Assembly (NCBI GenBank): GCA_009835325.1
Contig: VXWP01000022.1
Coordinates: 1-39,396 of the forward strand
Length of the DNA stretch: 39,396 nt
Origin: Gemmatimonadota bacterium
Lineage (GTDB): Bacteria > JAAXHH01
Direction of reading: 5' to 3'
Shown here: piece after piece, positions 2,470 through 3,986 of the stretch
How positions within the stretch are numbered: the stretch's first letter is position 1
Layout of the letters: every line of letters begins with the position of its first letter
Translations under genes and position numbers: made by a program
The notes under the pieces: model-generated
Told to the model about the DNA's origin: nothing
What the model saw: the letters and a program-made list of their open reading frames with translations, nothing else
Database searches by the model: none

Positions 2470-3045
2470 CTACCCTTCGATCATACCCAGGATCTCCACC
2501 AGGCTGTCGGTCGACGGCCGGTCGAAGGGATCCGATCCCACGTACTTGAACCGAAGGATGCCTTCCTTGTCGATGATGAAGGCCGTGGGAATGACTTCCG
2601 TTCCCTTGTCGGTCGCTTTCTGGATCTTGAACTTGGTGGGAATGGCCCGATCCGGGTCGGCTAGCACGGGGAAGGAAAGCGCCTCCCTGGTGACTTTCGA
2701 CTTGGCGACGAAGTCCCTGGTCTGGTCGAGATCTTCGGGATTGATGAAGAGTAGTTCCGTGTCGAGTGCTGCTATGCGATCGTAATCGGATTGCAACTGC
2801 CCCAGTTGCCGTAAGCAAAGGGGTCACCAGTAGCCTATCCAGCCGCGGTCGACGACCACAAGCAGGTTCTTGCTGCCCTTGTAATCGGCGAAGTTGACGG
2901 TCTCGCCGTTAACGTCCTGCAGGCTGAACTCCGGTGCGGCCTCACTCAGCCTCGGCGCCAGGTTACGGGGTTGCGCGTCGGCAAACTCCGTCACCAGGCC
3001 GACCAGGGCCAGGGCGAAGCACCACCGCGCCAGTGTATGAATCAT
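2470..3045 (-). CDS. Probable selenoprotein, exported peroxiredoxin-like (AhpC/TSA) protein, Sec74
   Basis: Reading through one in-frame TGA (2824-2826) gives a continuous 191-residue thioredoxin-fold protein. Residues 1-24 form a signal peptide ending near FADA, so it acts outside the cytoplasmic membrane. The domain opens with EAAPEFSLQDVNG, then LLVVVDRGWIGYW, then U-P-L-C (Sec74, Cys77), followed by LRQLGQLQ. This matches the PRX-like arrangement (WCPYC..QL..LQ) in which the TGA replaces the redox Cys. The fold continues with FPVLADP and the cis-proline loop VIPTAFIIDKEG (Pro153). A SECIS-like hairpin lies just after the TGA. The ATG at 3045 has a strong AGGAGGA. Expected role: thiol peroxidase or disulfide reductase with a Sec-Cys pair. 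Conventional gene callers would split or truncate it. A nonsense mutation is the main alternative. Confidence 0.85.
2793..2809 (-). promoter_or_regulatory. Candidate bacterial SECIS hairpin
   Basis: In the mRNA the hairpin is GCAACU-GGGGC-AGUUGC: a perfect 6-bp stem with a 5-nt loop that begins GG, starting 14 nt after the UGA. The distance from UGA to the first loop G is 20 nt, inside the range known for bacterial SECIS elements, which need a G in the first two loop positions to bind SelB. It lies entirely in coding sequence, as bacterial SECIS elements do. It is inferred from sequence only. Confidence 0.7.
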
Positions 3046-3099
3046 GGTCTTCCTCCTCGTTTCAGATGCAGCGCAATTCACTTGCGTTTTGTTACTTAT

Positions 3100-3128
3100 A
3101 ATATAACCTACCCCGACACGACTGTTAA
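3100..3128 (-). promoter_or_regulatory. Sigma-70-type promoter of the selenoprotein gene
   Basis: On the minus strand, TTAACA (3128-3123) and TATATT (3105-3100) are separated by exactly 17 nt; each matches consensus at 5 of 6 positions. The -10 lies 55 nt before the ATG at 3045. It is in the 149-nt divergent gap shared with the isomerase gene starting at 3195, which otherwise shows nothing obvious. Confidence 0.5.
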
Positions 3129-3194
3129 CTTCAAAATTACCGCCGTCCGCAACGATTTCATGTGCCAGCAACGATTCCAAGGAGCCGCCTCCCC

Positions 3195-3986
3195 ATGAAG
3201 CCAGGCATCACGCAACTCTGTCTCGCCCGCCAGGATCTCGAAGCGGATCTCTCGAAGGCCCGGGATCTGGGCTACGAGGCCATCGAACTGGTTTTCTCCG
3301 ACCAGGGTTCACCGGACATAGACGCCTCTACCTCGGAGATTGCCGCCGTGGGGGAGGCCTGCAGGAATCATGGACTCGAACTGTGTTCCATGATCGCCAT
3401 CCGCAGTGATGCCGGATCCCTGTTGTCGCCGTCCGCGGAAGAACGGGCGAAGCGGGTTGCCATCCTCGAGCGCGGCTTCGAAATCGCCGAGATCCTGAGT
3501 GTAGACGCCCTCCTCCTGCATCCCGGAGCGCTCGATCCGGCGAGTTCCTACGGGACGACCTGGGACAACTTCCGCGACGCCCTGCGTGATCTCGCGCCCG
3601 AGGCGGAACGCCGCGGCACACGGATCGGCATCGAGAACGTGTGGAACCAGTTCATGCTGAGTCCCCGGGAAGCCCGCCAGCTCGTCGACGAGGTAGGATC
3701 GCCCGCCGTCGGGATCTACCTGGACACAGCCAACATGATCCTCTACGGCTATCCCGACATGTGGATCAAGGAACTGGGCCGACGGATCTTCAAGGTGCAC
3801 GTGAAGGATTTCCGGCGCGGGGAAGGCGCCTGGGTCCAGCTGATGGACGGCGATACGGACTGGCCGGCGGTCATGGCTGAATTGCGCGGCATCGGGTTCG
3901 ACGGTGCCCTGGTGAGCGAGGTTGGCGGCGACGACGACACCATGCGGGAAACCGCCGAGCGCATCCGGCGGATCATAGCCCTGTAG
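3195..3986 (+). CDS. Sugar phosphate isomerase/epimerase, xylose isomerase-like TIM barrel
   Basis: A 263-residue AP-endonuclease-2/xylose-isomerase-like TIM barrel. The barrel strands are recognisable: GYEAIELVF, LLLHPGAL, RIGIENVWNQF, VGIYLDTANM, FKVHVKDF and GALVSEVGG. The usual divalent metal ligands are present as Glu in GIEN, Asp in LDTAN, His in VHVKD and Glu in SEVG, so the enzyme is probably active on a ketose, aldose or cyclitol. The substrate is not determined. The ATG at 3195 with AAGGAG 10 nt upstream is preferred over the upstream in-frame start at 3162. It is transcribed divergently from the selenoprotein gene and converges on the MltB gene 41 nt downstream. Confidence 0.88.
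   Translation: MKPGITQLCLARQDLEADLSKARDLGYEAIELVFSDQGSPDIDASTSEIAAVGEACRNHGLELCSMIAIRSDAGSLLSPSAEERAKRVAILERGFEIAEILSVDALLLHPGALDPASSYGTTWDNFRDALRDLAPEAERRGTRIGIENVWNQFMLSPREARQLVDEVGSPAVGIYLDTANMILYGYPDMWIKELGRRIFKVHVKDFRRGEGAWVQLMDGDTDWPAVMAELRGIGFDGALVSEVGGDDDTMRETAERIRRIIAL

Follow-up and report, generated by a model that had tools for sequence, protein, structure and literature searches.

The window analysed here is the whole 39,396-nucleotide stretch of DNA (contig VXWP01000022.1) of an uncultured bacterium, placed in Latescibacterota or Gemmatimonadetes by public records. It carries, on the minus strand, a gene whose reading frame contains a single in-frame TGA at codon 74, in the context GWIGYW-U-PLC-LRQLGQLQ. 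The gene and the features around it are the following:

2470..3045, minus strand: probable selenoprotein gene, AhpC/TSA-like (thioredoxin fold), 191 aa, stop TAG; translated with TGA=U; PF00578 at 85.2 bits; 15 orthologues
2587..2589, minus strand: Pro153 in IPTAFIID, at the thioredoxin cis-Pro position; invariant in the orthologue alignment, opposite the Arg of 2ywn
2793..2809, minus strand: bSECIS-like hairpin, GCAACTG-GGG-CAGTTGC; assigned from conservation, codons -2 to +11 being invariant in 11 genus copies
2815..2817, minus strand: TGC, Cys77, the partner Cys of UxxC; invariant across the aligned orthologues
2824..2826, minus strand: TGA, probable selenocysteine 74; TGA in 15/15 orthologues
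2974..3045, minus strand: probable signal peptide, MIHTLARWCFALALVGLVTEFADA, followed by Q; judged by eye
3052..3057, minus strand: Shine-Dalgarno AGGAGG, 6 nt 5' of the ATG; from the sequence, position kept in the genus
3100..3128, minus strand: sigma-70-like promoter, TTAACA-17-TATATT; consensus match only
3162..3986, plus strand: AP_endonuc_2 TIM-barrel gene, divergently transcribed from the gene above

The first-pass annotation, made from the window alone, had described an otherwise intact thioredoxin-fold gene interrupted by TGA at W-U-P-L-C, with its expression and export signals in place, and this description holds: the match to Pfam AhpC-TSA extends over residues 36-167 of the translated stretch and so runs across the TGA (Redoxin, also from Pfam, is matched as well), the proposed ribosome site and cis-Pro loop are present, and the promoter agrees with the consensus at 10/12 positions, with 0.3 such sites expected in shuffles. 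Since the N-terminus has the appearance of a signal peptide (a judgement made by eye, as is the finding that the cleavage site is similar in all lineages, including three distant orthologues), the protein is probably exported, that is, located outside the cytoplasm. Apart from Cys77, the only further Cys is C9, a non-conserved residue of the signal peptide. The AP_endonuc_2 neighbour, which is kept within the genus and, outside it, in one genome belonging to another family (L040), gives no redox link.

Orthologues were found in 15/16 genomes of the phylum (12 in one genus, the window's own counted, and three from other genera and families, four genera in all), and each has exactly one internal TGA, at the position of codon 74. 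The three orthologues from outside the genus share about 45-50% protein identity, and no Cys form at position 74 occurs among the orthologues in these 16 genomes. It is in distant homologues from other phyla that a redox Cys stands at this position, either in CPLC/CPFC (cyanobacteria) or as the first Cys of CxxC (ResA-like), so that the comparison of position 74 with AhpC/TSA homologues, which had been proposed as a check, points to a redox residue. Selection on the protein is nearly the same on the two sides of the TGA: among 11 genus copies, the mature part 5' of it has a pN/pS of 0.134 and the part after codon +11 one of 0.117, from which it follows that the sequence beyond the TGA is translated and constrained. 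Between these two regions, codons +1 to +11 show neither synonymous nor nonsynonymous changes in the same 11 copies (pS 0, versus 0.23 before and 0.30 after). The longest invariant run of the gene extends over 14 codons, from -2 to +11, the next longest being 6 (permutation p = 0.0003), and as a sequence pattern this is what would be expected from an RNA element overlying the coding sequence.

The constrained stretch is closed by the hairpin at 2809-2793, which the first-pass annotation did not mention. Its stem has 7 bp, and the loop (GGG) lies 21 nt after the UGA. According to the published bSECIS model, the loop has 3-9 nt, the stem has 4-16 bp, a G occupies one of the first two loop positions and the distance from UGA to loop is 16-37 nt (PMC13188914); the hairpin agrees with this model in 4/4 points. 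All seven stem pairs are kept in every aligned copy (100%), including a copy with an altered loop (L041) and another (L039) with a compensatory change from G-C to C-G in the stem, which also replaces Gln by Glu. This covariation concerns one pair only and is equalled by 50/500 shuffles. The folding energy does not differ significantly from that of shuffled sequences (z about -0.4 to -1.1), and thermodynamic folding of a 52-nt stretch starting just before the UGA yields a different, competing fold, itself not significant. In the window, about 2% of TGA trinucleotides are followed by a stem of like quality, and the weight of the hairpin therefore rests on its conservation and not on its energy.

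The genome to which the window belongs (3.68 Mb, 95% complete) contains the four sel genes whose absence, in the first-pass annotation, would have spoken against a selenoprotein. SelA (496 bits), SelB (345 bits over the whole frame) and SelD (246 bits, a Cys form with CAGCGAK) all score above their NCBIfam cut-offs, and selC, whose tRNA-Sec (anticodon TCA) scores 70.6 bits, lies directly behind selB. Across the phylum, SelB is above its cut-off in 14/15 genomes and tRNA-Sec is present in 13/15. One of the two genomes without a tRNA-Sec is G013, in which selB abuts the contig end (C27:18-1907, minus strand), and this may be the reason why selC is missing there; the other, G014, is 85% complete and in 1170 contigs. 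A further TGA lies in the window's genome in a SelW-like gene of the Rdx family (L160, G000:C68:19091-19306, minus strand), in the motif YCADU (CxxU); on its sequence this gene is a candidate for a second selenoprotein, and would be an independent sign that a known selenoprotein family makes use of UGA here. Among the 11 AhpC/TSA matches in the genome there were no further TGA-interrupted genes, and the single DsbA-like match is without TGA. We also observed that this selD, with its CxxC (L016 1-1178, G000:C116), starts at a contig end, and could be the C-terminal part of a NADH dehydrogenase-SelD fusion; such fusions are reported to carry CxxC (PMC2398784).

Taken together, the sel genes, the conserved UGA, the SECIS-like hairpin and the selection beyond the UGA make it highly probable that codon 74 is decoded as selenocysteine and that the gene encodes a selenoprotein. 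A lone in-frame stop within an otherwise intact gene is also what a pseudogene or a sequencing error would leave, if a TGC or TGG codon had mutated or been misread. We give this reading practically no chance: all 15 orthologues, which come from independent assemblies, share the position of the TGA, and this refutes it and rules out chance as well, purifying selection is equal on either side of the UGA, and the machinery for selenocysteine exists in the genome. Coding selection on both flanks of the UGA would equally be produced by its reading as Trp or Cys, through a near-cognate or suppressor tRNA or a reassigned code. Against this, TGA terminates 13/22 of the long ORFs of the window (picked mechanically), so that no global reassignment is needed, as had been argued earlier from the stops of other genes, and a complete Sec system is present, with the CxxU SelW-like gene sharing the use of UGA; reading as Trp or Cys is thus very improbable.

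It is just as hard to accept that the UGA is a true stop, separating a short signal-peptide protein from a second, downstream ORF. An ORF with a TTG start is indeed available there (2470-2796), but the thioredoxin fold extends across the UGA, the TTG lies 3' of the active site, and the UGA junction tolerates no variation, which leaves this arrangement a very small probability. With selenocysteine as the preferred reading, the hairpin just downstream would recruit SelB with its Sec-tRNA(Sec) to serve the ribosome at the codon-74 UGA, and selenocysteine would be inserted there; the N-terminal signal peptide would then direct the product to secretion.

With respect to its family, selenoproteins with a PF00578 domain and UxxC, the "Prx-like thiol:disulfide oxidoreductases", are included in lists of prokaryotic selenoproteins (PMC13188914, PMC9312934), and the Global Ocean Sampling study counted 225 members of "Prx-like 1" (PMC2398784). 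The existence of such a class had been mentioned in the first-pass annotation, correctly. The protein described here has the defining features of the class, namely the PF00578 domain and U74-P-L-C77, with U and C invariant, and on domain and motif it is very probably a lineage-specific addition to it. What it shares with the class are the Pfam domain, UxxC (the class comprises UxxC and UxxU) and bacterial Sec insertion, whereas the apparent signal peptide, the W-U-P-L-C context, and its occurrence here in the Sec form only, in one phylum, set it apart. No NCBIfam model reaches its cut-off on the protein, and a PHROGs search gave no match. By E-value, the best NCBIfam match is the model for SelL-related redox proteins (NF040769, residues 37-146), but this family was rejected, as the score of 62.8 bits compares with a curated cut-off of 120 and the UxxU motif is lacking. 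The ResA/TlpA/DsbE thiol-disulfide oxidoreductases have a similar cis-Pro loop, and the nucleophile of their CxxC stands at the position of U74; they use Cys, however, and not Sec, and the ResA model scores 47 bits here versus a cut-off of 170. Cyanobacterial CPLC/CPFC redoxin-like proteins (e.g. L052 and L059) have a Cys in place of U in a like PLC motif, but at about 24-29% identity the likeness is one of motif and does not imply orthology. A literature search by title and abstract found no paper on selenoproteins of Latescibacterota or of sponge symbionts.

The AlphaFold model of the protein has a middling pLDDT of 72.7 (below 50 in the active-site loop, residues 71-73), and in structure comparison it matches Bcp/PrxQ, AhpC and ResA; the product would be expected to adopt an AhpC/TSA-TlpA-type thioredoxin fold. 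The catalytic Thr and Arg and the peroxidatic Cys of peroxiredoxins, the CxxC of ResA and the cis-Pro of thioredoxins all have well-established roles. In the alignments, U74 coincides with the first Cys of the CxxC of ResA, the best solved relative by sequence, and sits three residues before the peroxidatic Cys position of peroxiredoxins, at the Thr of TxxC, while the peroxidatic Cys of true peroxiredoxins aligns with C77. Pro153 faces the catalytic Arg of peroxiredoxins (alignment with 2ywn) and fits the thioredoxin cis-Pro. The strict peroxiredoxin signature (PxxxTxxC/U with catalytic Thr and Arg) is consequently missing, with U at the Thr and Pro153 at the Arg, and a true peroxiredoxin was rejected as an assignment. 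As regards exported oxidoreductases of the ResA/TlpA type, with their signal sequence or anchor, CxxC-type motif and cis-Pro, UxxC and Pro153 are present here, a signal peptide is suggested by eye, and the score is below the ResA model cut-off. Judged from these aligned residues, the active site is of the thiol-disulfide oxidoreductase type (ResA-like UxxC with cis-Pro) and not that of a true peroxiredoxin. The name "peroxiredoxin-like", used in the first-pass annotation, is therefore apt for the fold but probably not for the chemistry.

Because U74 aligns both with the Thr of peroxiredoxins and, in thiol-disulfide oxidoreductases, with the N-terminal Cys, reductase or oxidase chemistry appears likelier than that of a classical peroxidase. 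The likeliest activity would be an exchange of the thiol-disulfide type, in which Sec74 makes the nucleophilic attack and the intermediate is resolved, as a selenenylsulfide, by Cys77, the one conserved redox residue besides Sec74. The protein would act in this way as a thiol/disulfide (or peroxide) oxidoreductase outside the cytoplasm. The same Sec gene might instead encode a true peroxidase which, like peroxiredoxins, reduces H2O2 or alkyl hydroperoxides, by means of Sec74 or Cys77. This is suggested by the best fold matches, which are peroxiredoxins of the Bcp/PrxQ and AhpC types (overall fold alike, TM-scores about 0.65-0.8; Sec forms of peroxiredoxins have TxxU), and by the matches to AhpC-TSA and Redoxin; given, however, that the catalytic Thr of TxxC is exchanged for U and the catalytic Arg for Pro, and that there are just two redox residues, at UxxC spacing, we regard a peroxidase as rather unlikely. 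Elsewhere, stops at the peroxidatic position of Prx-like proteins were seen in a Betaproteobacteria MAG (L120, TDT*TTE) and in a Bacillota MAG (L122, TPV*GAQ), both of which, in sequence, resemble the known TxxU type of Sec peroxiredoxin.

A further observation concerns SelA. In three genera of the phylum, the only SelA above the cut-off is one without the N-terminal domain (L001 1456-2724 in G000:C61, L162 and L163), which for the window's genome counts as a point against the selenocysteine reading; the profile match starts at model position 70-72, and the active-site stretch SGDKL[LM]GGPQAG is intact. In other organisms, the N-terminal domain of SelA binds tRNA-Sec. It is conceivable, as a tentative proposal that we would not yet favour, that the phylum retains an exported, obligately Sec-dependent UxxC oxidoreductase with no Cys alternative, whose selenocysteine is made by a SelA without this domain; if true, the short SelA would imply another way of recognising tRNA-Sec.

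The class of UxxC selenoproteins is already known, and the protein described here is one more member of it. What the present analysis adds is a well-supported, lineage-wide selenoprotein, which standard gene callers would split or label as a pseudogene, and for which all NCBIfam models stay below their cut-offs, thereby documenting the use of selenocysteine in a poorly studied phylum, probably outside the cytoplasm.
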